DNA of 33,119 nucleotides from Alistipes sp. (lineage in GTDB: Bacteria; Bacteroidota; Bacteroidia; Bacteroidales; Rikenellaceae). The stretch spans positions 1-33,119 of the forward strand of contig JAFXFM010000014.1 in the NCBI GenBank assembly GCA_017520545.1, read 5' to 3'. The notes below the pieces were generated by a model. It saw only the letters and a program-made list of their open reading frames with translations, had not been told where the DNA came from and ran no database searches. How positions within the stretch are numbered: the stretch's first letter is position 1; each line of letters begins with the position of its first letter. Both the position numbers and the translations under genes were made by a program. Below, one piece after another: positions 358 through 32,182 of this stretch.

Positions 358-1737
358 ATGAGAATTGCTCAATTACTAAAATCTACCGACTACGGTACAA
401 AGGTTACCGTAAAGGGTTGGGTACGTACAAAGCGTGGAAACAAGAACGTCGCCTTCATTGCATTGAACGATGGCTCGTGTGTTGCCAATATCCAGATTGT
501 TGCCGACCTCTCAAAAATTTCGGAGGAGGAGTTGAAGCCTGTAACTACAGGTGCGTGTGTGGCTGTCGAGGGTACTCTCGTAGAGTCGCTTGGCGCAGGT
601 CAGGGCGTTGAGGTGCAGGCAGACTCAATCGAGGTCTATGGCATCGCCGACCCTGCAACTTACCCGTTGCAGAAGAAGGGCCACTCGTTGGAGTTCCTCC
701 GCGAGATTGCCTACCTTCGTCCTCGTACCAACACCTTTGGTGCTATTTTGCGTATTCGCCACGCTATGGCGTACGCTATCCATAAGTACTTCAACGATAA
801 GGGCTTCTACTATCTCCATACCCCACTTATTACCGCTTCGGATTGCGAGGGTGCGGGCGAGATGTTTCAGGTTACAACACTCGATTTGAACAATATGCCT
901 CGAACCGAGGAGGGTGCAATCGATTTTTCGCAGGACTTCTTCGGCAAGCCTTGCAGCCTTACCGTATCGGGTCAGTTGGAGGGCGAGTTGGGAGCTTTGT
1001 CTATGGGACAAATCTACACCTTCGGTCCTACTTTCCGTGCCGAACACTCGAATACTCCGCGCCACTTGGCAGAGTTCTGGATGATCGAGCCGGAGGTTGC
1101 TTTCTTCGACCTCCAGGACAATATGGATATGGCGGAGGAGTTTTTGAAATACCTTATTCGCTACGCTCTCGATAACTGCAAGGAGGATCTCGAATTTATG
1201 AACAAAATGTGGGACAACGAGTTGCTCGACCGCCTCAACTTTGTGTTGGAGAATGACTTTGTGCGCCTCGACTACACCGAGGGTATCAATATCCTGAAGG
1301 CTTCGGGCAAGAAGTTTGAGTTCCCTTGCGAGTGGGGTAGCGACTTGCAGAGCGAGCACGAGCGCTATCTCGTAGAGGAGCACTTCAAGAAGCCTGTAAT
1401 TCTCATCAACTATCCAAAGGATATCAAAGCCTTCTATATGAAGCAGAATGAGGACGGCAAAACCGTTCGTGCTATGGATGTTCTCTTCCCGAAAATCGGC
1501 GAGATTATAGGCGGTTCGGAGCGAGAGGCAGACTATGGCAAACTATCTGCACGTATCAAGGAGCTCAACATTCCTGAGAAGGATATGTGGTGGTATCTCG
1601 ACACACGCCGTTGGGGTTCAGCACCTCACTCCGGCTTCGGACTCGGCTTCGAGCGACTTTTGCTCTTCGTTACAGGTATGAGCAATATACGTGATGTGAT
1701 ACCGTTCCCTCGTACCTTAAAGAATGCTGAGTTCTAG
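358..1737 (+). CDS. asnS: Asparaginyl-tRNA synthetase
   Basis: Cytoplasmic class IIb aminoacyl-tRNA synthetase that charges tRNA-Asn with asparagine using ATP. The 459-residue length is normal for bacterial AsnRS. The N-terminal OB-fold anticodon-binding domain spans about residues 12-95 ([12 protein letters not shown] and following). The class II catalytic core shows motif 2 at about 223-246 ([20 protein letters not shown]; the R-A-E-H-S-N-T form favours AsnRS over AspRS) and motif 3 at about 426-437 ([12 protein letters not shown]). The start is the ATG at 358, following an A-rich leader and a good Bacteroidota promoter. The gene seems monocistronic: two copies of a long palindromic repeat begin one base after its TAG stop. 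Confidence 0.97.
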
Positions 1738-1738
1738 G

Positions 1739-1862
1739 AAAATCGTTCTGACAAGTTCTTTTTGCACGAGCGCGTCGGACGCCAAATTCCTCACATAGGC
1801 CGACTATGCTGCGGATTTGTCGCCTAGCATCGCACAAAAATAATCTCGTCATCGACGATTTT
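1739..1862 (+). repeat. Long palindromic interspersed repeat, copy A
   Basis: About 124 bp, starting AAAATCGTTCTGACAAG one base after the asnS stop and ending TCGACGATTTT. The two ends are imperfect inverted repeats (AAAATCGT against ACGATTTT; TTTTTGCACGA against TCGCACAAAAA), and the middle folds again around CACATAGG and CTATGCTGCG, so a transcript would form one long hairpin. It is the first member of a family of five full copies between 1739 and 5049. Confidence 0.85.
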
Positions 1863-1870
1863 CGAGGAGG

Positions 1871-1992
1871 TTCGTTCTGACAAGTTTTTTTGCACGAGTG
1901 CGTCGGACGCCAAATTCCTCACATACACCTGAGTATGCTGCGGACTCACTACCTTGTTTAGTACAAAATTTCCTCGCTCATAAGCAATTTTC
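1871..1992 (+). repeat. Long palindromic interspersed repeat, copy B (diverged right half)
   Basis: It starts TTCGTTCTGACAAG and shares TTTTTTTGCACGAGTGCG and the GTCGGACGCCAAATTCCTC block with copy A. The right half has drifted (ACCTTGTTTAGTACAAAAT in place of GCCTAGCATCGCACAAAAA) but still ends GCAATTTTCG. It is tandem to copy A with 8 bp between them. Copies A and B fill most of the asnS-rpoN gap. Confidence 0.75.
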
Positions 1993-2007
1993 GGAACAGG
2001 GAAAAGA

Positions 2008-2037
2008 TTTCCGTTTTCCGCTCTCCGTTTTCCGTTT
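2008..2037 (+). repeat. TTTTCCG heptamer array upstream of rpoN
   Basis: About four units of the 7-bp repeat (ATTTCCG, TTTTCCG, CTCTCCG, TTTTCCG). With copies A and B it accounts for the 348 bp between asnS and rpoN. No clear TAnnTTTG box follows it. Confidence 0.8.
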
Positions 2038-2085
2038 ATAAATGAAGAGGCGATAAAAAGGTTGCAGTTGAACTTTTTGACCGCT

Positions 2086-3504
2086 ATGAAATTAGGAAAC
2101 GCACAACTGCTTTTACAGCAGCAGAAACTCTCTCCGCAGCAGATTCAGATGATTAAACTTCTGGAACTGCCTACCGTTATGCTCGAACAGCGCATAAAGG
2201 AGGAGATGGAGGAGAATGTTGTTCTCGAAGAGGAACACTCTGCCGAGAGTGAGGAGGAGCCTCAGCAAATTTCGGTCGAGGAGTATCTGCGCGAGGACGA
2301 TACCCCTGCCTATAAGAGCCGTCTGAATCACTACTCCAAAGATGACCAACCTCGGAATGTCCAAATTTCGGGTGGTCGCTCGTTGCAGGAGTCGCTTATC
2401 GAGCAGTTGGGCTATAAGAATCTCTCTGATTACGAAAGACAACTCGCTATATTTCTCGTCGGCAGTATCGACGGCGATGGCTACTTGCGACGCGACCTCG
2501 AATCGTTGTCGGACGATATAGCCTTCTCGCTTGGCGTTGAGGCGTCGGTGGAGGAGTTGGAGGAGTTACTATCGGTGATTCAGCACTTGGAGCCTGTGGG
2601 TGTTGGGGCGCGAGATTTGCGCGAGTCGTTGCTTTTGCAGATCGAGGCACAACCTCTCGACACCCCCGAGCGCATCTTGGCGCATAAAATTTTGGAAAAC
2701 TACTTCGAGGAGTTCGTTAAGAAGCACTACGAGCGACTTATGTCGCGCCTTTCGGTTACGGAGGAGGAGTTTCGCGGTGCGGTGCAGGAGATTCAGCACC
2801 TCTCGCCAAAGCCCGGAAATCTTTTCTCGGAGGAGGGTACTGACACTGCACCATATATTATCCCCGATTTTCTACTTGACTACCACGATGGTCAGTTCGA
2901 CCTCTCGCTAAACTCCTACAACATCCCCGAATTGCGCATCAATCGCCACTATGCCGATATGATTCGCGAGATGGCGACATCGAAGGGCGAAAAGAGTGAG
3001 AGCGACAAGGAGGCGATACAGTTTATAAAGAGTAAAATCGACTCGGCAAAGTGGTTTATGTCGGCGATAAAACAGCGCCACGATACGCTTATGCGCACTA
3101 TGCAGACCATACTCGACTATCAGCGCGAATACTTCCGCGATGGAGATAGGAGTAAGTTGCGCCCGATGATTTTGAAGGATATTGCCGACCGCACGGGGCT
3201 CGACGTTTCGACAATTTCGCGAGTGGTGAACAGCAAATATGTTCAGACGCAATTCGGCATAATCCTATTAAAATCGCTCTTTTCGGAGGCTATGCAGACG
3301 CAGAGCGGCGAGGAGGTGTCGAGTTACGAGGTGAAAAATATCTTGCAGGAGGCTATCACATCGGAGAATAAGCGCAAGCCGCTTACCGACGAGCAGTTGA
3401 TGAATATCCTCAACGACAAGGGTTACTGCATCGCCCGCCGAACAGTCGCCAAATATCGCGAAATGTTGGATATACCCGTAGCCCGCCTTCGCAAGCAGAT
3501 ATAA
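2086..3504 (+). CDS. rpoN: RNA polymerase sigma-54 factor
   Basis: Alternative sigma factor that binds -24/-12 promoters and needs an AAA+ activator to open DNA. Region I is the glutamine/leucine-rich N-terminus (LLLQQQKLSPQQIQMIKLL), followed by an acidic linker (EEEHSAESEEEPQ), the core-binding domain, a helix-turn-helix (DIADRTGLDVSTISRVVNSK) and, near residue 450, the diagnostic RpoN box ARRTVAKYRE. An in-frame TTG at 2062 would add eight residues; I prefer the ATG at 2086 (472 aa) because family members begin close to the QxQxLSPQQ helix. No activator gene is visible in the window. The last base of the stop codon is also the first base of palindromic repeat copy C. Confidence 0.96.
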   Translation: MKLGNAQLLLQQQKLSPQQIQMIKLLELPTVMLEQRIKEEMEENVVLEEEHSAESEEEPQQISVEEYLREDDTPAYKSRLNHYSKDDQPRNVQISGGRSLQESLIEQLGYKNLSDYERQLAIFLVGSIDGDGYLRRDLESLSDDIAFSLGVEASVEELEELLSVIQHLEPVGVGARDLRESLLLQIEAQPLDTPERILAHKILENYFEEFVKKHYERLMSRLSVTEEEFRGAVQEIQHLSPKPGNLFSEEGTDTAPYIIPDFLLDYHDGQFDLSLNSYNIPELRINRHYADMIREMATSKGEKSESDKEAIQFIKSKIDSAKWFMSAIKQRHDTLMRTMQTILDYQREYFRDGDRSKLRPMILKDIADRTGLDVSTISRVVNSKYVQTQFGIILLKSLFSEAMQTQSGEEVSSYEVKNILQEAITSENKRKPLTDEQLMNILNDKGYCIARRTVAKYREMLDIPVARLRKQI

Positions 3505-13987: not shown

Positions 13988-14023
13988 AACCCGTCCGCCG
14001 CAGGTAAAAATTCCTAAAACGCA

Positions 14024-14206
14024 GAGGCAGGTCTTCTGACTTATCCATTGCCGATGCCTTCCCAACTCGTATATCGGAGTCAGTGGCAAAGATTTTCGGC
14101 TCTAATAGTAACCACACCCGATGGTGTGGCGGACTTACAGCAGCGAGGACTGTCCGGGATTTTCACCCGATTCCCTTTTCATCGAAACTCCCGACGAGCG
14201 AGTCGT
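14024..14206 (-). promoter_or_regulatory. Cobalamin (adenosylcobalamin-class) riboswitch
   Basis: On the minus strand the conserved landmarks appear in order: AAAGGGAATCGGGTGAAAAT, then CCCGGACAGTCC, GCTGCTGTAAGTCCG, TTGCCACTGACTCC, GTTGGGAAGGC, and the B12 box AAGTCAGAAGACCTGCC (ends at 14026). This is the cobalamin aptamer; the ligand normally lowers expression of the gene behind it. It lies between its own -7 box and the DUF4465 lipoprotein, in a 461-bp gap that holds no gene. A leader of about 210 nt separates aptamer and ATG. Confidence 0.92.
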
Positions 14207-14224
14207 TCCGAACCTTTGCTGCTG

Positions 14225-14232
14225 CAAATGTA
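14225..14232 (-). promoter_or_regulatory. -7 box (TACATTTG) before the cobalamin riboswitch
   Basis: A perfect TAnnTTTG on the minus strand. The -33 region is only a T-rich run (TTTTTCTTTTT). Transcription would start near 14219, just before the aptamer. Confidence 0.55.
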
Positions 14233-24063: not shown

Positions 24064-24073
24064 TTAAAAAATG

Positions 24074-24147
<74 letters not shown>

Positions 24148-24233: not shown

Positions 24234-25166
24234 TTAGAGTTTTTCGCCATTTCTCCACGCCAAATATCCTATCCACAAACGCAACAATCGGCAACGCAGA
24301 CTGAAATGGAGCTTGGCTGTGAGGATATCGTGCAGATTTATGAGGTCTATTCTATCGAGGTTGTCCATTAAGGCACGATATGTTCTCTTGCAGCCGAAAT
24401 GCTTTATGAGCATACCCACACGATAGCAACGTGAACGCTTCAACTCCTCCTTGTAGCCCTTGCCCACCATCTCACGCAATTTGCGCACCACAACCAACGA
24501 TTGAATGAATTTCTCGATATTGAGGGTGTTCGAGCAACTCGCCTCGTTCGCGCGGTTGTAGATATAGCCGTACAACTCGTTCAATGTCTTCACACTACGG
24601 CTTTTGTGCATTACAGTTGCCAACAGTAGCCAATCTTCACCATATATTATGTTGGTGTCGAGGCGAATGTTGTTCTCCTCGATTAGGCGACGACGATATA
24701 GCGTGCCGGCAATGCCAATCATTGTGCGATGTCCCATCACCTGACGGAATGCCTCGTCCCAATTTTTGGCATAGCGTACGGGGCGTTTATGGGTGCGTTC
24801 GTTGCCGAAAACATCGAGTGTGGAGAAGCGGATAATGTCGTACTCCTCCATATAGGGCAGACACTTGGCAAGCGTTCCTTCGGCGAGCCAATCGTCGGCA
24901 TCGACAAAGGTTACCCACTCGCCTGTGGCGTTGTCCAAACCGCAATTGCGTGCAGAACTTACACCGCCGTTCTCCTTTGATATTACCTTTATGCGGCTCT
25001 CCTTCGAGGCGTATTCGTTGCATATTTCGAGGCTGTTGTCTTTGCTGCCATCGTTCACCAACAACAATTCGTAGTCGTCCACGCCCTGCTCGGCGATACT
25101 CTCGATGCACTTGGCGAGGTATTGCTCTACATTATAGACCGGCACAATTATACTAATCAACGGCAT
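24234..25166 (-). CDS. Family 2 glycosyltransferase
   Basis: GT-A fold enzyme that moves a sugar from a nucleotide donor to a growing surface glycan. The 310-residue protein starts MPLISIIVPVYNVEQYL, has LLLVNDGSKDNS (35-46), ENGGVSSARNCGLDNATGEW and the metal-binding DADD (89-92), then YGEDWLL in the acceptor region. Its C-terminal 80 residues are basic and helical, with no clear membrane segment. I chose the ATG at 25166, which overlaps the 3' end of the pyruvyltransferase gene by 10 bp, a sign of translational coupling; the longer frame from a TTG at 25205 is less likely. The acceptor is unknown. Confidence 0.9.
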   Translation of the reverse strand: MPLISIIVPVYNVEQYLAKCIESIAEQGVDDYELLLVNDGSKDNSLEICNEYASKESRIKVISKENGGVSSARNCGLDNATGEWVTFVDADDWLAEGTLAKCLPYMEEYDIIRFSTLDVFGNERTHKRPVRYAKNWDEAFRQVMGHRTMIGIAGTLYRRRLIEENNIRLDTNIIYGEDWLLLATVMHKSRSVKTLNELYGYIYNRANEASCSNTLNIEKFIQSLVVVRKLREMVGKGYKEELKRSRCYRVGMLIKHFGCKRTYRALMDNLDRIDLINLHDILTAKLHFSLRCRLLRLWIGYLAWRNGEKL

Positions 25167-26242
25167 AGGGCTTGTTTTAAGAAGTTCAGACTTCGTTCCT
25201 GCCAACTTTGCAGACCCTGTTCAACGTTTTGCCACTTTATCGGGTCGGTCGGAACCTTGGCTCGCTCCACGTCGATTATTGTGCGGTCGAGCAGATTGAA
25301 CTTTCCGAGTAACGAAACAAAACGACTTGCACCACGATTACGGTTTATCATAACGGCAAACTCTCGACGAAAAATTGTCGAGAAGACGCACCCGTGGAAC
25401 GAATCGGTAAGTACGTACTCCGCATCGCGGAACATTGCCAGCCACTCTTCAACCGATAGGTCTGCCTCTTTGTCGGCTCCAAAAATTTGCGCTACAACAC
25501 CTCTTTGCTTTGCTTCTCGCTCTATGAGCGCAATTTTTTCGGGCGTAGGGTCCAAAATATAAGCAGCGAGATATCGCTCCTTGCTCTTTGCTATTGAAGC
25601 GCATACGGTGCGGTAGTCGTCAGCCGTGAGTAGCAGGGTAGGGTCGAGCACCTCCGTGGCATCAACACCAAGATAACTGCGACATAGTGTTACGCCCGAC
25701 TCCTCGCGTACCGAAATATGCTCTATTCGCTTGGCGAGTTTGCTGCATAGCTTGGCTTTACGAGGCTTGTACTCCCAGTGATCCACTCCAAACGAGGCGG
25801 CGTAGGCAATCTTCTTGATATCGCCTCTATTCTCCACAAAGTCGAGGAACATATTTGTCAAAACTCCACGATTGTAGCGAGGACGCCACACTTGGTCGCT
25901 ACCTACAATAACCGCCTCCAACCCATACTCCGAGATGAGTTTTGCCGAGTAACCATCGACAGCTTGTGTTGTGGCGATATTCTTCTCCACGAAGTTCGCA
26001 AAGTGTGGCTTTCTGGACTTTACAATCCTACTGTTTGGCAGTGGTCGCTTCGTTGAGTGAAAGAGATTGTAAAGGAGATTTCGTAACCACACCTTTACCA
26101 GTCTGCCCCTCGACATTGTAATTGTGTAGTCGATAGTAATGGGCTCGTGTCCCAATCTACGCAAAACGGTCTGCATTGCAAAGTTTTGCAATACACCGCC
26201 ATAGTTGTTTAACAATGGTTGAGTTACGATACCTACCTTCAT
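25157..26242 (-). CDS. Polysaccharide pyruvyl transferase family protein
   Basis: The 361-residue protein belongs to the WcaK/CsaB-type family that adds ketal pyruvate to sugars of surface polysaccharides. It begins MKVGIVTQPLLNNYGGVLQN, has AVIVGSDQVWRP near residue 110, KKIAYAASFG, ISVREESGV, VLDPTLLL, and the conserved YVLTDSFHGCVFSTIF near residue 280. It overlaps the next gene (GT2), and gcvT ends 33 bp before it, so the three could share a transcript. The sugar acceptor is unknown. Confidence 0.88.
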   Translation of the reverse strand: MKVGIVTQPLLNNYGGVLQNFAMQTVLRRLGHEPITIDYTITMSRGRLVKVWLRNLLYNLFHSTKRPLPNSRIVKSRKPHFANFVEKNIATTQAVDGYSAKLISEYGLEAVIVGSDQVWRPRYNRGVLTNMFLDFVENRGDIKKIAYAASFGVDHWEYKPRKAKLCSKLAKRIEHISVREESGVTLCRSYLGVDATEVLDPTLLLTADDYRTVCASIAKSKERYLAAYILDPTPEKIALIEREAKQRGVVAQIFGADKEADLSVEEWLAMFRDAEYVLTDSFHGCVFSTIFRREFAVMINRNRGASRFVSLLGKFNLLDRTIIDVERAKVPTDPIKWQNVEQGLQSWQERSLNFLKQALCR

Positions 26243-26275: not shown

Positions 26276-27370
26276 CTACACAAACGGCAACTTCACCACC
26301 TCGGCTTTGAGCAATCTGTCGCGGATAACCACGCAAACTACCGTACCAACCTTCGCAAACTCGCTCTTGACGTATGCCATACCGATACCAACCTTCAAAC
26401 AAGGCGACATCGTTCCCGAAGTGATGTGTCCAATCTCGTTGCCCTCGGCGTCCGCTACCTTATATTCGTGGCGTGGAATACCACGATCAATCATTTTAAG
26501 ACCTACCAACTTGCGCTCTACGCCGTTAGCCTTCTGCTCGGCGAGGAGGTCGCGGTCGATAAACTCTTTGCCATCGACAAACTTGGTAATCCAACCCAAG
26601 CCCGCCTCGATAGGCGAAGTTGTGTCGTCAATCTCGTCGCCATACAAGCAGAAACCCTTCTCCAAACGGAGTGTGTCGCGTGCGCCCAAGCCGATATTTT
26701 TCAGACCATACTCCTCACCTGCCTTCCACAACTCCTCCCAGATGTGATCGGCGTCCTCGTTGTGCATATATATCTCGCAACCGCCCGAGCCTGTGTAGCC
26801 TGTCATCGAGAGTATCACCTCGCAACCTGCCAACTGCAACTGACGGAAGGTGTAGTACTCCATATTCTCAACCTCCTCCTCGCACATCTTCTGCACGATT
26901 TTCATTGCGAGAGGTCCCTGAATTGCCAACTGCGAGATGCGGTCCGAAGCGTTCTCCAACTCCACGCCTTCGCGCATTCCGAACGCCTTACCCTGCTCCA
27001 AAATATGCGCCCAATCCTTGTCGATATTGGCAGCATTCACGCAGATAAGGTACTTCTGCTCCGAGTAGCGGTAGATGATAATGTCATCGACAATACCGCC
27101 CTTGCCGTTAGGCATACACGAGTATTGCGCCTTGCCATCGTAGAGCTTTGTTACATCGTTTGTGCCTATGCGCTGCAAGAGGGCAGTGGCATTCTCGCCC
27201 TTAACCCAGATTTCGCCCATATGGCTCACGTCGAACACGCCTGCACCGTTACGTACGGTCATATGCTCGTCGTTGATGCCCGAAAACTCGATAGGCATAT
27301 TGTAGCCCGCAAACTCCGCCATCTTGGCACCATTTGCAATGTGATACTTTGTAAATACGGTTGTTTTCAT
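26276..27370 (-). CDS. gcvT: Glycine cleavage system T protein (aminomethyltransferase)
   Basis: Takes the aminomethyl group from lipoyl-GcvH to tetrahydrofolate, giving 5,10-methylene-THF and ammonia. The 364-residue protein has the N-terminal [28 protein letters not shown], the folate-site [31 protein letters not shown] and [17 protein letters not shown] motifs, all standard. Other gcv genes are not nearby. Start ATG 27370, with a promoter and a leader of about 60 nt containing a short TTAGCCATTGGC repeat (near 27411). Confidence 0.97.
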
Positions 27371-27434
27371 AGTGTTATGTAGTTTTAAGGTTTTTCGGTT
27401 TGTGGGCTTTTAGCCATTGGCTTTTTCTCCACTA

Positions 27435-27464
27435 CAAAATTAAAAAATTTTGCTCACAAAACAA
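27435..27464 (-). promoter_or_regulatory. Promoter of gcvT
   Basis: On the minus strand TTG (27462-27464), a 19-bp spacer and TAATTTTG (27435-27442), a perfect TAnnTTTG. Confidence 0.55.
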
Positions 27465-27484
27465 TAACTCTCGAAAATTATTTC

Positions 27485-27492
27485 TAAATTTG
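27485..27492 (+). promoter_or_regulatory. -7 box (TAAATTTG) of the island operon
   Basis: A perfect TAnnTTTG on +, placing the transcript start near 27497, at the foot of the first leader hairpin. No -33 match was found in the AT-rich DNA upstream. Confidence 0.5.
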
Positions 27493-27494
27493 TA

Positions 27495-27733
27495 GTGCAG
27501 TCTTCGGATTGCAGACATATTATTAGTGAAAGTGTTTCGCTAATCCTTGACAGTAAAATTTGGCGATTTTAGAACACAAGGATAGGCAATAAAGCACTCA
27601 TCACCGTGTACGGATATATCACTTCTTGATATACCTACGGTGTGGGGTATTGTTTATTTGTGTTCAGGCCACGCCAAATGCCTACTGTCAGATAAACGAA
27701 CAACCTCACACTTTCTTTTTATACTAACTGCAC
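27495..27733 (+). ncRNA. Structured leader RNA: UUCG hairpin, short hairpin and ~143-nt nested hairpin
   Basis: Three hairpins follow each other. H1: TGCAGTC (27496-27502), loop TTCG, GATTGCA (27507-27513), a 7-bp stem with the stable C(UUCG)G loop. H2: ATTAGTGAAA (27522-27531), loop GTG, TTTCGCTAAT, 10 bp. H3: 27548-27690, with nested helices TGACAGTA/TACTGTCA (8 bp), ATTTGGCG/CGCCAAAT (8 bp), GAACACAA/TTGTGTTC (8 bp), CAATA/TATTG, CACCGT/ACGGTG and TATATC/GATATA, separated by internal loops. GTGCAGT (27495-27501) can also pair with ACTGCAC (27727-27733), enclosing everything and competing with H1. No T run follows, so it is not a simple terminator. It fills the 400-bp gap before the TerB-like gene. 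It may be a cis-acting leader or a separate small RNA; 6S-like RNA is an alternative. Confidence 0.65.
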
Positions 27734-27771
27734 ATTCGAGGTCGGTGGGCAAACCTAAAACTTAATTTATT

Positions 27772-28149
27772 ATGGCAAAATATGCTTATACTGAAGAGGG
27801 TAAAGCCGCAATTGTTGTTTTAGCAACAATGATGATTAAAGCAGATGGAAGAACAGATCCAAAAGAAATTGATTTGAGCCTCATATTTTTTAATAAGCTT
27901 AATGTGGGGTCGAAAGCTTTAAATTTATCAAAAACAATGACTCCAAGCGAAGCTTTGCTTATTGTCAACAAAATGACACTAGAAGAAAAGAAGTTAGTAA
28001 GAGTTATTTTGTCTACAATTTTGGCTGCAGATGGGGAAATGGACGATAGAGAATTAGCAATACTCACTACAGTTTCTTTGGTTGCTAATATTCCTCAAGT
28101 ACTCCCTGATGAGGGACGAAAAATCTTAGAAGAGCTATATATGGTATAG
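27772..28149 (+). CDS. TerB-like protein
   Basis: A 125-residue all-helical protein with two TerB-type acidic motifs of the same spacing: D25-G26..D29..E32 (ADGRTDPKE) and D87-G88..D91..E94 (ADGEMDDRE). TerB domains occur in tellurite-resistance and phage-defence-associated proteins and, as a partner of a J-domain, in DjlA-like co-chaperones; the acidic motifs probably bind metal. It lacks a signal peptide or membrane helix and should be cytoplasmic. It is the first gene after the structured leader. No other ter genes are present. The function in this operon is unknown. Confidence 0.7.
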   Translation: MAKYAYTEEGKAAIVVLATMMIKADGRTDPKEIDLSLIFFNKLNVGSKALNLSKTMTPSEALLIVNKMTLEEKKLVRVILSTILAADGEMDDRELAILTTVSLVANIPQVLPDEGRKILEELYMV

Positions 28150-28193
28150 CGATTTAAGAAGAATATATAAAAATTAAAGGTTAGTAATTAGTT

Positions 28194-28901
28194 ATGCAAA
28201 AATTTAAAACGATCTCGATTGATGAGGTAAATGCGATTTGGCAAAAAGGGGATTATATTACAAAAAGTGATAGATTAAAGCTCCAGTCCTATACTGTTAC
28301 AACTCTTTGCGAAATGTGCGAAGGATTAACAAATGAAGAATTAGCAGAAGTCTATTTTCTAGAATCAAAGAATCTTTGGCGAGTTATCAACATTGCGTGT
28401 TGTATAACAGGAGTATATCCCGAAGGACTACAAATGCTAAAAAATACTCATATATATTATCAATTGCAAAATGAAGCCCAAGAACTAGACGGAAGCGACA
28501 TTTTCAAAAAGAGAGTATTCATTCAAGTTTTATTCGAGCAATCCCTAAAAGAATTTAAACAAAATGGTAATATAGAATTTCAAGGTAGAATGCCTCAAAA
28601 GTTGTTCCAATTTAGACAACAAACTGCAGATAATTGGTTTGATAGTTACTCAACAACAGCTGCTAAGTTATTTGCTATGATATATGCGGCCCTAGGTAAA
28701 GATGAAGCCATGGCTTTCATTTTTGGTTTTACAGCTTATTACCTTAATAAGTCTCAAACTTTTAAGTATTATGCAAAATCAACCGATTCTAATATGAATG
28801 ATACTATATTTAGAATATTAGGAGAATTTACAAATGTTGTAGGCGGAGATAAATCTTTGATACAGAATACGGGTCGTGTGGTTTTATATAAAGATTTGTA
28901 A
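28194..28901 (+). CDS. Hypothetical protein, mostly helical (island gene 2)
   Basis: I do not recognise this 235-residue protein. It is AT-rich in codon use, predicted cytoplasmic and largely helical. Visible segments are an acidic N-terminal half (LCEMCEGLTNEELAEVYF), a central KKRVFIQVLFEQSLKEFKQN, and a hydrophobic patch AAKLFAMIYAALGKDEAMAF followed by IFGFTAYYLNKSQTF. That patch is interrupted by charged residues, so a membrane helix is doubtful. It lies 44 bp after the TerB-like gene and 2 bp before the next gene, so the genes should be co-transcribed. Confidence 0.75.
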   Translation: MQKFKTISIDEVNAIWQKGDYITKSDRLKLQSYTVTTLCEMCEGLTNEELAEVYFLESKNLWRVINIACCITGVYPEGLQMLKNTHIYYQLQNEAQELDGSDIFKKRVFIQVLFEQSLKEFKQNGNIEFQGRMPQKLFQFRQQTADNWFDSYSTTAAKLFAMIYAALGKDEAMAFIFGFTAYYLNKSQTFKYYAKSTDSNMNDTIFRILGEFTNVVGGDKSLIQNTGRVVLYKDL

Positions 28902-28903
28902 TT

Positions 28904-29314
28904 ATGAGACTTTGGGAATTTATAAAAAACATCATCAATACAATAATGGATGGCTCTTTGGAAAGGGTTAGAATTATTCGGGCGATGAATGAAAATTTTC
29001 AAGAATCTTATTATTCGGGTGGTATAGATAGATTATGCAGAGTGAGCATTGGTGCTGGCGACCCAGAATTTGCGCATGAAATGAGCTCAATGTGGGTAAG
29101 AAGCGGTTTTAGGATAACTATAGAAAACGATTTAGGGCTAGCGGATTCAGAAGTATTTGAGATTTCGGATTATATATTGCAAAATAAGTCATTTATTAGA
29201 CAACTAATGGCCTTAGGTTTTGATACTCTAATTGTGCAAGGAAAGGTTACAAGAAGAGGGAAATTATTTTGTTTAAAATCTTATTCAAACTTAAATGAAT
29301 ACATGTTGCACTAA
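28904..29314 (+). CDS. Hypothetical protein (island gene 3)
   Basis: A 136-residue protein of unknown family. It has an amphipathic N-terminal helix (MRLWEFIKNIINTIMDG), then a mixed alpha/beta stretch with SIGAGDPEFAHEMSSMWVRS, FRITIENDLG and FDTLIVQGKVTRRGKLFCLK. No known motif is seen. Its 3' end overlaps the next start by 20 bp in another frame, pointing to translational coupling. Codon use is AT-rich like its neighbours. Confidence 0.75.
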   Translation: MRLWEFIKNIINTIMDGSLERVRIIRAMNENFQESYYSGGIDRLCRVSIGAGDPEFAHEMSSMWVRSGFRITIENDLGLADSEVFEISDYILQNKSFIRQLMALGFDTLIVQGKVTRRGKLFCLKSYSNLNEYMLH

Positions 29315-29579
29315 TTTCATAAAACGAATTACTGCGTATTTTGAGGCTAAGTTTACAAAGGATAAAGATTGCACAAAAGATGCAGTTAATGTTGTTGAAA
29401 GTTTCTCGAAAGCGAAAGTATTATACAAAACACTGTGTAAAAAGTGCCATCCAGACCGCTTTGTTGAGGAAGAGAAGAAGTTGATTGCCGAAAATTTATT
29501 TATGAGAGTTCAGCATAATCGTTATGATTACGAAGCTCTTAAATGTATATCTGATGAGGTTGATCAAAGTTTGGATTAA
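29295..29579 (+). CDS. Short J-domain-like protein with HPD motif (island gene 4)
   Basis: A 94-residue protein whose C-terminal half resembles helices II and III of a J-domain: AKVLYKTLCKKCHPDRF (HPD at residues 52-54) then KKLIAENLFMRVQHNRYDYE. J-domains use HPD to stimulate the ATPase of DnaK/Hsp70. The N-terminal half (MNTCCTNFIKRITAYFEAKF, then a short acidic-basic stretch) is not a usual helix I, so the domain may be reduced or atypical. With a TerB-like protein in the same operon it recalls the TerB-J pairing of DjlA. It could guide Hsp70 to the products of genes 2 and 3; that is inference. Confidence 0.65.
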   Translation: MNTCCTNFIKRITAYFEAKFTKDKDCTKDAVNVVESFSKAKVLYKTLCKKCHPDRFVEEEKKLIAENLFMRVQHNRYDYEALKCISDEVDQSLD

Positions 29580-29602
29580 AATTCATTTTAAATTTACTAA
29601 AC

Positions 29603-29628
29603 AGCCAATGGCCAATGGCTAATGGCCA
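29603..29628 (+). repeat. CCAATGG heptamer repeat after the island
   Basis: CCAATGG, CCAATGG, CTAATGG in 7-bp register, directly before the shared terminator. It marks the return to host-type intergenic DNA. Confidence 0.65.
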
Positions 29629-29631
29629 TAA

Positions 29632-29667
29632 AAAGCTAACCGAACGATTTTTCGTTCGGTTAGCTTT
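29632..29667. terminator. Bidirectional terminator between the island and the GNAT gene
   Basis: AAAGCTAACCGAACGA (29632-29647) and TCGTTCGGTTAGCTTT (29652-29667) form a perfect 16-bp stem around TTTT. The stop codon of the GNAT gene overlaps its right edge by two bases. Confidence 0.88.
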
Positions 29668-30889
29668 AGTTTTCCGTTTTCCGTTTTCCGCTTTCCGTTC
29701 GGCGCAGGCCGAGTCGTGGGCAGCGGTGGAACTCGCGAGTGCGGTCGAATAGGTAGCGATATGTGGTGTGCATCTTGTGCTTTGTAGCGCAGACATAACG
29801 CTCTATCATTCTATTCATTACGGGATTAAAGTCGCCAATCCACGCAAACTCGAACGACTTGTAAGGGCTGCGACCCGTTTGGATGTAATTTTCGAGAATA
29901 TAGGTCATAATGGCACTCTCGATGCCCTTGCCCTGAAATTCGGGCGTGATGCCGAAGATAATGCCAAAGACTCTGTCGCACGAACGTCGCACCTTCAGAT
30001 CCCACATCAGGCGCAACTTCTCCACCAGACCGAATTTGCCGTTGAATTTACCAATTACACGATTCAAGTCGGGTACCATAACGAAGAAACCTATCGGCTC
30101 GTCGTTGTGGTAGGCGAAGTAGATGAGCTCCCTATCAATAATAGGTCGCAACGTGCTCATCAACGTTTGCGCCTCCTCCTCACTCATTGGCTTAACGCCC
30201 GTAAAGAGCGACCACGCCTTGTTATAGATTGTTCGCAGATTCTCCGCAGCCTCTTTGAGGTTTACACCTCGTATATCTCGGATTTGGTACTCGGGGTTGG
30301 CGAGTACGCGATGCGCTTTTTCGAGTGCGATTTCGCTCAACACGCCACTCTCGGCACGCCAAATGTATGAATTTTGATTGAAATAGTTTTCGAAGCCGTA
30401 GTTCTCGAATAGGGCCTTGTAGTATGGCAGATGATATGGATTTCCATAGAGCGGCTGGTACTCGAAACCCTCGACCAACAAGCCCCACCACGAATCGCGT
30501 GAGCCAAAGTTTACCGGTCCGTCCATACCCTCCAAACCACGCTCCGAGAGCCACCCTCTCGCAGCGTCGAAGAGCAGATTGGCAACCTCTTGCGAATCAA
30601 TCGACTCGAAGAAGCCGCAGCAACCCATATTCTCTGTAACCTTCGCCTGTTCACGATTGTAGAATGCAGCGATACGACCTACCGCCTCACTCTTCTCATC
30701 GTAGGCTATCCAGCGAATAGCTTCGCCACTCTCGAACAGGTGGTTGCTTTGCGGGTCGAAAACCCTCTCTATATCGTTGTCGAGTGGGCATACCCACGCC
30801 TCTGCATCTCGGTAGATTTTGCGGTCGAGATGCAACCACACCTTTGCTTCGTGTGGTGTTGTAACCTCTTTAAGATGATATTGTGCCAT
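29666..30889 (-). CDS. GNAT-fold protein with repeat-encoded C-terminus
   Basis: A 407-residue protein conserved in Bacteroidales as far as I can tell, with one clear GNAT signature: GIIFGITPEFQGKGIESAIM, where QGKGIESA is the acetyl-CoA pyrophosphate loop (Q-x-x-G-x-A type). The N-terminal half carries GPVNFGSRDSWWGLLVEGF and YGNPYHLPYYKALFENYGF. The substrate is unknown. Its last residues (TESGKRKTEN) are encoded by the TTTTCCG array at 29670-29697 read on the minus strand, and the stop TAA lies at the terminator, so the ancestral stop seems lost. It starts at ATG 30889, 3 bp after rimO, in the operon ftsY-rimO-this gene. Confidence 0.8.
   Translation of the reverse strand: MAQYHLKEVTTPHEAKVWLHLDRKIYRDAEAWVCPLDNDIERVFDPQSNHLFESGEAIRWIAYDEKSEAVGRIAAFYNREQAKVTENMGCCGFFESIDSQEVANLLFDAARGWLSERGLEGMDGPVNFGSRDSWWGLLVEGFEYQPLYGNPYHLPYYKALFENYGFENYFNQNSYIWRAESGVLSEIALEKAHRVLANPEYQIRDIRGVNLKEAAENLRTIYNKAWSLFTGVKPMSEEEAQTLMSTLRPIIDRELIYFAYHNDEPIGFFVMVPDLNRVIGKFNGKFGLVEKLRLMWDLKVRRSCDRVFGIIFGITPEFQGKGIESAIMTYILENYIQTGRSPYKSFEFAWIGDFNPVMNRMIERYVCATKHKMHTTYRYLFDRTREFHRCPRLGLRRTESGKRKTEN
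29670..29697 (+). repeat. TTTTCCG heptamer array coding for a protein C-terminus
   Basis: Three TTTTCCG and one CTTTCCG in register. Because 7 is not a multiple of 3, all three frames of the unit are used, giving ESGKRKTEN on the minus strand. Confidence 0.88.
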
Positions 30890-30892
30890 AGT

Positions 30893-32182
30893 CTAAACTA
30901 TCTCTGCATAGAGATCGAAATCGTCAGCATCAGTGATGCGGACATTGTAGAAATGTCCCTTCATTAGACGTTTGTGGCTGGTAATCAAAAGCTCCTCGTC
31001 CACTTCGGGCGAGTCGTACTGCGAGCGACCGATGTAGTATTCGCCCGACTTGCCATCGATAATAACACGCTCTATATTGCCCACACGCTCCTCGTTCTTC
31101 GAGTGCGAAATCTCTGCCTGAATAGCCATCAGATGCTCTGCGCGATAGTTCTTCACCCGCTCCGGAACATTATCCTTCAACTTTGTTGCCGAGAATGTTC
31201 CCTCCTCCTCCGAGTATGGGAATACACCGAGTCGGTCGAAACGAAGTCGCTTAACCTCCTCGCACAACTCCTCGTAATCCTCGGCACTCTCGTTCGGGTA
31301 GCCCACCAACATAGTGGTACGAATTGCGATATCGGGTATTGCGGTGCGCAGTCGCTCAATCAATTCGAGAGCCTCCGCCTTTGTGTGGCGACGGTGCATC
31401 AACTCCAACTGATTGTCGGCGAGGTGTTGCAACGGAATATCCAAGTATTTACAAATTTTAGGCTCTCGGGCCATCACCTCAATTACCTCTTGCGGAAAGT
31501 CGGTAGGGTAGGCGTAGTGCAGTCGTATCCACTCGATGCCCTCCACCTTGCACAACTTTTCGAGCAACTCCGCCAAACAGCGCTTGCCGTAAAGGTCCAT
31601 ACCGTAGTAGGTGGTATCTTGTGCCACCACCATCAACTCCTTAACGCCCTTTGCTGCGAGATTTTGCGCCTCCTCCAACACCTGCTCCATAGGTACCGAA
31701 CGATGCTTGCCACGAATCAGCGGAATAGCGCAATAGCCACATCGCCAATTGCAACCCTCGCCAATTTTGAGGTAGGCGTAGTGCTTCGGTGTGGAGAGTT
31801 CGCGCTGTGTTTCGACCTCCTTGTTATAGTTGCCCGTCAAGGCTCTAACTACGCTGTCGAAGGTGCGTGCGCCAAAGTAGTCGTCCACCTCGGGAATCTC
31901 CTCGCGCAACTCCTCGGCATAACGCTCCGAAAGGCAGCCTATAACGAACAGTTGCTCAATCAACCCTGCACGCTTTGCCTCGACGCAGTTGAGTATGGTG
32001 TCGATGCTCTCCTCCTTTGCATCGCCAATAAAGCCGCAGGTATTCACTACCACGACCTTGGCATCTGTGCGGTCGCTATCGAAACGAATTTCGTAACCTG
32101 CCTTTGCCAACTGCGCAGCGATATGCTCCGAATCGACACGATTCTTGGCGCAACCGAGCGTTATGATGTTTACAATCTTCAT
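30893..32182 (-). CDS. rimO: Ribosomal protein S12 methylthiotransferase
   Basis: Radical-SAM enzyme that adds a methylthio group to an Asp of ribosomal protein S12. The 429-residue protein has the N-terminal MTTase domain with auxiliary-cluster cysteines Cys11 (ITLGCAKNRVDSE), Cys49 (NTCGFIGDAKEES) and Cys83 (VIGCLSERY), the radical-SAM CxxxCxxC at 144-151 (GCNWRCGYC), and a C-terminal TRAM domain (IERVIIDGKSGEYYIGRSQY). The D-S and G-F-I-GDAKEES pattern favours RimO over MiaB. Its ATG is 6 bp after the ftsY stop, and the GNAT gene follows 3 bp after it. Confidence 0.96.
   Translation of the reverse strand: MKIVNIITLGCAKNRVDSEHIAAQLAKAGYEIRFDSDRTDAKVVVVNTCGFIGDAKEESIDTILNCVEAKRAGLIEQLFVIGCLSERYAEELREEIPEVDDYFGARTFDSVVRALTGNYNKEVETQRELSTPKHYAYLKIGEGCNWRCGYCAIPLIRGKHRSVPMEQVLEEAQNLAAKGVKELMVVAQDTTYYGMDLYGKRCLAELLEKLCKVEGIEWIRLHYAYPTDFPQEVIEVMAREPKICKYLDIPLQHLADNQLELMHRRHTKAEALELIERLRTAIPDIAIRTTMLVGYPNESAEDYEELCEEVKRLRFDRLGVFPYSEEEGTFSATKLKDNVPERVKNYRAEHLMAIQAEISHSKNEERVGNIERVIIDGKSGEYYIGRSQYDSPEVDEELLITSHKRLMKGHFYNVRITDADDFDLYAEIV

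Follow-up and report, generated by a model that had tools for sequence, protein, structure and literature searches.

A structured leader RNA before an acquired operon of Alistipes sp. belongs to a widespread Bacteroidota family with the predicted layout of a transcription attenuator

The contig JAFXFM010000014.1 of Alistipes sp. (assembly GCA_017520545.1), analyzed here over its full 33,119 nucleotides (the window), carries four genes behind a long leader between gcvT and a GNAT gene. The original prediction, made from the sequence alone, had described these genes as an AT-rich, horizontally acquired operon with a 240-nt structured leader. Our scan of open reading frames (ORFs) agrees with this description in that all four genes lie on the forward strand with a spacing of 44, 2 and -20 nt. 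Their G+C content (GC 0.32-0.35; 0.25-0.31 at third codon positions, GC3) is lower than that of the flanking genes (25157-26242, gcvT, the GNAT gene and 30893-32182; GC 0.49-0.52, GC3 0.53-0.67). The structured leader exists as well and is longer than had been proposed: the folded RNA extends from about position 27497 to 27751, behind a promoter-like box, and reaches a minimum free energy of -89.9 kcal/mol (z = -6.4), with 0/200 dinucleotide shuffles equally stable. The features of the locus are listed in Table 1.

Table 1 Features of the leader, the operon and the inserted segment in the window.
Feature	Coordinates	Strand	Evidence or remark
Inserted cassette, leader plus four genes, with gcvT and the GNAT gene on either side	27410..29691	+	blastn against L217; relatives lacking the cassette
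Promoter -7-like box TAAATTTG	27485..27492	+	sequence; fits TAnnTTTG
5' hairpin P0, GCAGUC-UUCG-GAUUGC, variable among copies	27497..27512	+	alignment; formed in the shorter of two folds
Strand S1 GAAAGUGU, partner S3 (ACACUUUC)	27528..27535	+	alignment folding; swap test
P6 5' strand AUCCUUG, partner CAAGGAU 27577-27583	27543..27549	+	swap test
RNA core matched by covariance models R1 and R2	27545..27698	+	R1 138.4 bits, R2 127.1 bits; window copy is in both training sets
P2 5' strand GACAGU, partner ACUGUC 27684-27689	27549..27554	+	swap test; two-sided changes in 5/5 modelled pairs
HP1, hairpin-like, loop UUGGCG 27560-27565, complement CGCCAA 27672-27677 (interaction K)	27555..27570	+	swap test of K
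P3 5' strand GAACACAA, partner UUGUGUUC 27658-27665	27572..27579	+	98% of cells paired
P4 5' strand CACUCAUCACC, partner S2, candidate antiterminator	27595..27605	+	alignment folding, covariation, swap test
Strand S2 GGUGUGGGG, partner P4 5' strand or S3	27639..27647	+	swap test
Terminator-like hairpin S2:S3 plus P5 (27650-27657/27692-27699) plus HP2, then UUUCUUUUU	27639..27720	+	folding
HP2, hairpin-like, holds the CGCCAA partner of K	27666..27683	+	alignment, swap test
Strand S3 CCUCACACUUUC with U-run 27716-27720	27704..27720	+	U-run enrichment among copies
Last hairpin, loop strand S4 GAGGUC 27738-27743, complementary to S3	27729..27751	+	swap test of S3:S4
Gene 1, TerB-like protein, 125 aa	27772..28149	+	PF05099, E 1.9e-4, 22.1 bits
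Gene 2, orphan protein, 235 aa	28194..28901	+	own genome only among 151 genus genomes
Gene 3, undescribed family, partner of gene 4, 136 aa	28904..29314	+	relatives in Bacteroidales
Gene 4, HPD-bearing J-like protein, 94 aa	29295..29579	+	directly behind gene 3 in relatives; DnaJ E 0.011
Perfect 16-bp inverted repeat with T-rich tail, candidate terminator at the right end of the cassette	29632..29667		sequence

Comparison with related genomes bears out the proposed horizontal acquisition. The cassette is missing at all 23 other gcvT-GNAT loci of the genus (L217-L239), where gcvT adjoins the GNAT gene; the gap between the alignment ends is at most 153 nt in 22 of them and 502 nt in L225, the latter with an apparent small unrelated ORF. 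The GNAT gene was searched in 41 genomes, and a second GNAT copy (G005, C64, one internal stop) and a fragment in G016 stand outside the count of 23. In blastn against the closest empty locus, L217, whose gcvT is 97% identical to that of the window, positions 26277-27409 align with 373-1509 and 29692-31500 with 1518-3332, and just 8 bases of L217 separate the two blocks. Because the alignment stops at 27409 and resumes at 29692, the insert of about 2.28 kb comprises leader and genes together. The comparison shows that the 2.3-kb segment is an insertion and that leader plus operon entered the gcvT-GNAT operon as one unit. A second comparison, at the SppA-Mrp site of another copy in the same genome (L081), gives weak support: SppA and Mrp adjoin each other with no cassette between them in 5/17 loci of the genus, and the remaining 12, the closest relative among them, have no Mrp in the stretch compared. 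Repeats with a 7-base period lie in inverted orientation at both cassette ends (about 27410-27425 and 29607-29690). Such repeats (AGCCATT and TTTTCCG types) flank several cassettes of this genome, yet they occur elsewhere in the same regions and were rejected as cassette ends.

The leader is one of about ten copies in its own genome. Searching its DNA returned further copies there and matches in 29/61 genomes, its own included. We then used two covariance models, R1 built from 31 copies and the broader R2 from 64. R1 matched 53/61 genomes of the genus, including 25/26 of high quality, and 40/295 Bacteroidales genomes. Matching genomes of the genus have 1 to 23 copies, that of the window ten, one of them weak at E 8.5e-5. 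R2 matched 89/295 Bacteroidales genomes in 60/184 genera, and the 49 genomes that it added had contributed no sequence to the model. In a sample of the phylum, 31/375 genomes matched (4 from the same order, 21 from the same class, 6 from other classes). One viral contig holds a copy of the RNA; plasmid and phage collections gave no DNA match to the leader, although with R1 a plasmid of Parabacteroides distasonis shows a divergent copy (E 2e-9). Rfam holds no counterpart at gathering score for the window and eight family loci, up to E 10 for the leader or up to E 1 for 13 loci; its output was limited to tRNA, cobalamin elsewhere and chance microRNA models. Titles and the opening parts of abstracts contained no published description of the RNA, and the thousands of supplementary candidates of PMC8040213 may include an overlap. 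The leader thus appears to be a member of a widely shared, apparently undescribed family of structured RNAs of about 250 nt. The original prediction had seen in this place its best candidate for an undescribed system; the place holds up, and the recurring and most unusual part is, as judged from these searches, the leader rather than the protein quartet.

In the alignment of 64 copies, 87.3% of the cells were paired against 69.2% after shuffling. Two-sided changes occupied 419 cells, compared to 121.9±11.3 in shuffled alignments and 58-87 when partners were slid, and in P3 they affected 7/7 pairs. This covariation is strong and above chance, and the leader is a structured RNA. G-U cells outnumbered A-C cells by 240 to 79 in the model-fitted alignment, which points to selection on the transcribed strand. 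As fitting the alignment to the model weakens both counts as support, a swap test was added, in which the own partner of each strand was compared with the partners of other copies (62 copies, 2000 permutations, also within two sub-groups, GUGUG and other). Two antisense matches (L066:1382 and L057:1454) were excluded from the swap tests and from the G-U count. No permutation reached the observed value for P2, K, P3, P6, P5, P4a:S2, S2:S3 or S1:S3 (0/2000 each), and two did for S3:S4. Negative controls gave 593 (S1:S2), 347 (S2:S4), 1328 (P2a:P3b) and 392 (S1:S4) of 2000. Inside both sub-groups P2, K, P3 and P6 hold at 0/2000 and P5 at 3 and 0, while S2:S3 stands at 45 (GUGUG) and 7 (other).

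Strand S2 is therefore predicted to have two mutually exclusive, covarying partners, the 5' strand of P4 and S3, which is what is looked for in a riboswitch. Both pairings of S2 are supported in the non-GUGUG sub-group (0 and 7 of 2000), and S2:S3 alone in the GUGUG sub-group (188 and 45). Folding, carried out without pseudoknots, kinetics or proteins, was consistent with such a competition. When the stretch from S2 to S3 was folded alone, it formed S2:S3 and the P5 hairpin right before the U-rich tract, with -29.3 kcal/mol in the window, and S2:S3 was populated in 60/62 copies as long as the upstream strand was omitted. With the upstream core included, S2 paired with P4 in 52/62 copies and S3 with the upstream 45 nt in 37/62; in the full leader S3 paired with downstream sequence in 22/62. 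In these longer leaders S1 stands for the entire 45 nt upstream of the core. The alternative S1:S3 was rejected as terminator, being AU-rich and losing its covariation in both sub-groups, whereas S2:S3 with P5 is a GC-rich stable hairpin. The prediction places a GC-rich, stable hairpin and then a U-run ahead of the gene, as expected of an attenuator.

The surroundings of the core fit this layout. TAnnTTTG is the Bacteroidetes-type promoter -7 consensus, and it occurs 20-140 nt upstream of the core in 57/62 copies, compared to 5/179 stretches further upstream. A U-run of at least four lies 10-45 nt after the core in 51/62 copies versus 56/124 control windows. The distance from S3 to the start codon was determined in a pattern survey, in which at least 118 stretches were picked through an exact 21-base pattern, one of them (L137, Burkholderiaceae) being a chance match. 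At least 119 pattern places, the viral contig included, were surveyed; 82 of them were counted, after removal of 21 where CACACTTTC was absent from the stretch in which it was expected, about 8 that were too close to the end of a contig and 8 for which no ORF was called. For these 82, among the pattern matches listed, the median distance was 54 nt (quartiles 50 and 62, 90th percentile 108). Given the median 5' untranslated region of 32 nt that PMC7366714 reports for Bacteroides thetaiotaomicron, a leader as long as about 275 nt would be out of the ordinary.

Taken together, we favor, with a probability of roughly 0.6, the reading that these leaders form a new bistable cis-acting RNA family in Bacteroidota, which would gate acquired accessory operons via transcription attenuation. 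The predicted layout is that of an attenuator, with a terminator hairpin and an upstream core competing for its 5' strand, both covarying. One set of pairings, S2:S3 with P5, the stable hairpin directly before the U-rich tract, together with P6, would act as the terminator. In the other set, P2, K, P3 and P4 would serve as antiterminator, P4 taking S2 from S3, and S1 or S4 could then hold S3. Both sets covary, and they cannot coexist in one nested fold. A signal, whether a ligand, a protein or the state of translation or of the envelope, would decide between them, so that the leader is probably an on/off switch; in the window its output would be the TerB-like protein, the orphan and the conserved pair formed by the gene 3 protein and the HPD-bearing J-like protein. 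We infer transcription, termination, release, switching, the signal and its polarity from the sequence and its predicted folds.

Several observations weigh against attenuation or its details. At equilibrium, S2:S3 was populated in 1/62 copies of the longer leader, so that the decision to terminate would have to fall while the RNA is being transcribed or depend on a partner. A terminator scan allowing loops of 3-8 does not report the S2:S3 hairpin, and 11/62 copies have no run of four U. Within the sub-groups part of the swap-test signal is lost: P4a:S2 falls to 188/2000 in the GUGUG sub-group (0/2000 in the other), S3:S4 to 318/2000 in the other sub-group (1/2000 in GUGUG) and S1:S3 to 700 and 1168 of 2000. 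The stems of HP1 (226/2000) and HP2 (118/2000) do not covary significantly, and K could therefore be either a kissing loop or an internal helix; the permutations moreover ignore phylogeny among the copies. In the outgroup, 229-397 nt separate the core from the start codons of SusC-like genes, a distance well above that of the Alistipes-type set, and the first genes behind the leaders have no common function or pathway that would name a ligand. Two individual copies also fit poorly. A natural core-less leader (G000:C16:18907-18943; L007, L086) retains, immediately upstream of an AT-rich gene, the promoter plus about 40 nt, and the chimeric copy L019 combines a 5' half of the UUGGCG type with a 3' half of the CCAG type, leaving the halves of K mismatched, which suggests recombination between copies.

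Some of these points would suit a leader acting after transcription, as a ribosome-access switch or as a 5' stabilizer for mRNAs of exported proteins, with the U-run being incidental. In the window the start codon comes 28 nt after the end of S4, and a 5' hairpin sits behind the promoter; exported proteins are enriched among the first genes; and the scarcity of the terminator hairpin in longer leaders, together with the pairing of S3 to downstream sequence, would be natural for such an RNA. We nevertheless consider it unlikely, as the enrichment of U-runs and the stable GC-rich hairpin before them fit attenuation better. The same hairpin and U-run on the 3' side could instead terminate a stand-alone regulatory RNA that acts in trans or is processed off, the gene being read by read-through alone. 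The long distance to the outgroup SusC-like genes leaves room for a separate RNA, and the hypervariable P2, K and P3 could pair in trans. This is quite unlikely in our view, since in the Alistipes-type set a co-directional gene follows at a nearly constant distance and S4, which a terminated RNA would exclude, covaries beyond the U-run with S3 overall and in one sub-group.

It is highly improbable that the conserved element is primarily a DNA-level site for recombination or capture, such as an attC-like folded site or an integration hot spot, with the RNA structure secondary. Leader and passenger were inserted as a unit, passengers are diverse, seven copies of the RNA are joined to a foreign element at CACRC^TT, and 7-bp-period repeats flank several cassettes of the same genome. 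However, the excess of G-U over A-C, the promoter box in front and the fixed distance to the start codon all argue for a transcribed RNA, the CACRC^TT element also occurs outside the RNA (L249, L251) and the flanking repeats are found away from cassettes. In integron cassettes, too, acquired genes that can be exchanged adjoin a folded element that stays constant; this element, attC, lies 3' of the gene and is selected as DNA. Unlike attC, the leader is found on the 5' side of the gene, preceded by a promoter box; its cassettes stand singly among housekeeping genes, and it shows signs of selection on the RNA strand.

Attenuation as the preferred reading invites comparison with attenuating riboswitches and other 5' leader switches, which rely on mutually exclusive pairings, one of them a hairpin beside a U-run, with one leader per operon. 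The leader resembles them in its covarying multi-helix core behind a promoter motif, its mutually exclusive pairings and its several copies per genome. It differs in having no Rfam family, in its hypervariable P2, P3 and K and in first genes without a common pathway, most of them AT-rich genes for surface or accessory functions. Weinberg et al. 2010 (PMC2864571) described structured RNAs of the same phylum; 6S-flavo, Bacteroidales-1, Bacteroides-1, Flavo-1 and Bacteroid-trp carry Rfam numbers in Table 1 of that paper, so they should be in the library searched, and neither the window nor the 21 family loci gave a match to any of them. DonS-type RNAs of Bacteroides, which are regulatory at Sus-like loci, are 78-128 nt long and lie divergent or antisense to susC (PMC7366714). 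The link to Sus-like loci is common to both, whereas the leader RNA measures about 250 nt and is co-directional. At one locus (G005:C64, L271, 6231-6398 and 6582-6744, reverse strand) two leaders with very similar flanks stand in tandem about 180 nt apart, a pair that resembles tandem riboswitch arrangements.

The genes behind the leaders were compared across loci. Among the pattern matches listed, the GC of the first gene was below that of the other genes of the locus in 76/77 cases (mean 0.416 vs 0.517). By a simple home-made rule for signal peptides, 75/103 first genes (at least 45 aa) looked exported, compared to 38/184 control ORFs (at least 100 aa) upstream of the RNA. Genes were called by a longest-ORF script, which misses some overlapping genes, e.g., the gene 3-4 pairs of L258 and L259, which were found via reading frames. 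The 103 first genes matched 73 Pfam families, among them BspA-type LRR_5 (15), DUF4988 (5), BACON (5), fimbrillin-like (2), HSDR_N (2) and outer-membrane barrels. The first genes thus vary greatly, while the leader in front of them persists. With its first protein devoid of an apparent signal peptide, the TerB operon of the window is an atypical passenger. Strict co-inheritance of leader and passenger was considered and rejected as a general rule: 58 pairs of homologous first genes had a mean leader identity of 0.662, compared to a background of 0.620. Four pairs had passengers more than 74% identical, with leaders 93-97% identical in three and 80% in one.

More tentatively, and against somewhat longer odds than even, the family may be a phylum-wide class of RNA switch that serves as an interchangeable gate, the leader being kept while genes are exchanged, so that dozens of unrelated accessory operons would answer one signal. 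If the attenuation reading is true, one RNA architecture, invisible to Rfam-based annotation, would control many of the variable genes for surface and accessory functions in Bacteroidota from the gut and the environment. It would also suggest how newly acquired genes stay in check, offer a portable regulatory part for Bacteroides-type bacteria and raise the question of what the RNA senses.

Of the 17 outgroup loci L291-L307, 9 have a SusC-like gene (955-1044 aa) behind the RNA, as assigned by eye, and Pfam confirms the SusC and SusD pairs of L291 and L293. A small divergent gene that looks like a helix-turn-helix (HTH; Cro/C1) regulator lies upstream of the outgroup copies L280, L282-L286, L289, L290 and L304, and Pfam confirmed such a regulator in the two larger loci L291 and L293; it is a candidate regulator. 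In L112, L122, L171 and L184, and by eye also in L034 and L035, the first genes encode acidic-rich proteins of about 37-43 aa, most of them ending in W; they form a family of small proteins that recurs behind the leader. In L034 and L035 the tiny first gene appears to be followed by a lipoprotein-like gene.

With regard to the encoded proteins, the original prediction had placed TerB and J-like proteins in one stress or defence unit. DjlA combines TerB and a J domain in one protein, and we searched 19 loci around gene 3-4 relatives for a comparable association. By tblastn (E up to 0.01), no relative of gene 1 or gene 2 was found in these loci, in 18 of which genes 3 and 4 were detected; unlike in DjlA, TerB was thus not detected near the gene 3-4 pairs, and the proposed TerB-J unit is not borne out. 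A known defence system did not emerge either, as PADLOC matched 0/4 proteins, and NCBIfam and PHROGs returned nothing firm for any of them. The match of gene 1 to TerB (PF05099) stays under the Pfam gathering score of 24.4 bits. In L169 (5348-6968) a leader is followed by a relative of gene 1 as first gene (phmmer E 1.4e-7) and then by a GTPase with MMR_HSR1 and dynamin-like matches. Because this leader-borne cassette pairs a gene 1 relative with a GTPase, the TerB gene looks like an independent passenger. Homologues standing singly in unrelated contexts were thus found for gene 1 and not for genes 3 and 4, which stayed paired in 10/10 relatives. Gene 2 had no match in viral contigs, plasmids or phages and a chance-level match in Pfam (E 0.11), and its predicted structure was uninformative (predicted local distance difference test score, pLDDT, 38).

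Gene 3 matched in 11/393 Bacteroidales genomes, namely its own, nine with strong matches and one (E 8e-4) that looks spurious; an additional relative lies on the Parabacteroides distasonis plasmid NZ_OY725790.1. It has no Pfam match (0/9 aligned members at E 0.1), and the family profile found no PDB sequence at E 1. A gene 4 relative directly follows gene 3 in all ten relatives. HPD is kept in 9/10 of these gene 4 relatives (YPD in L260; CHPDRF in the window), and an N-terminal hydrophobic segment was seen by eye in 9/10. The match of gene 4 to DnaJ (PF00226) covers profile positions 18-48 of 63 and remains below the Pfam cut-off for a complete J domain (16.3 vs 27.8 bits); 4/9 family members match DnaJ weakly, the best at E 0.011. 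A single-sequence model (pLDDT 63) has helices at 26-51 and 57-74 with a loop in between, and a structure search with this poor model named no J protein among the matches listed, which is not evidence against a J fold. Compared with J-domain proteins, gene 4 and 9/10 relatives have HPD(R)F between two predicted or apparent helices, and gene 4 has a recognizable helix II-HPD-helix III half only. The J-like assignment of the original prediction therefore stands for HPD and this half, which relatives keep, and falls short for a complete domain. Genes 3 and 4 themselves constitute a small, conserved and undescribed pair; in several families of the Bacteroidales it joins an undescribed protein to a J-like partner, and this partner may recruit DnaK. 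The same RNA lies upstream in 3/10 pairs, L247 (R1 E 2e-9) as well as L258 and L259, both of one genus (R1 E 5.4e-7). In the seven other pairs, searched with extended upstream sequence, R1 found nothing at E <0.5, and R2 gave sub-threshold matches in two (E 0.056 and 0.072). Since L247 and L258 belonged to the training set of R2, the scores of this model at the two loci are not independent.

A mobile-element end, TTGAACCG-N~60-GATACCnnnAAGTTCCC, was seen joined to CACRC or a near variant, with L154 and L214 slightly different. The element is joined at S3 of the RNA seven times (L141, L199, L201, L154, L214, L059 and L248) and outside the RNA in L249 and L251. An alternative 3' module of the RNA (L141, L199, L201, L154 and L214; CACACTT, then the same end with GATACC and GTTCCC) had been considered and was rejected, as this end recurs outside any recognizable RNA. 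Because it is present in L249 and L251 without a recognizable RNA, the CACRC^TT junction marks the end of a separate mobile element. Behind the element end lie type I restriction genes (HsdR confirmed by Pfam in L141) or a DUF6088 protein (L214), and L141 and L199 have the insert in common and not the RNA. The window also contains, both on the reverse strand and both ordinary, a Cobalamin riboswitch (14009-14232, 95.6 bits) and a tRNA-Met (24073-24147).

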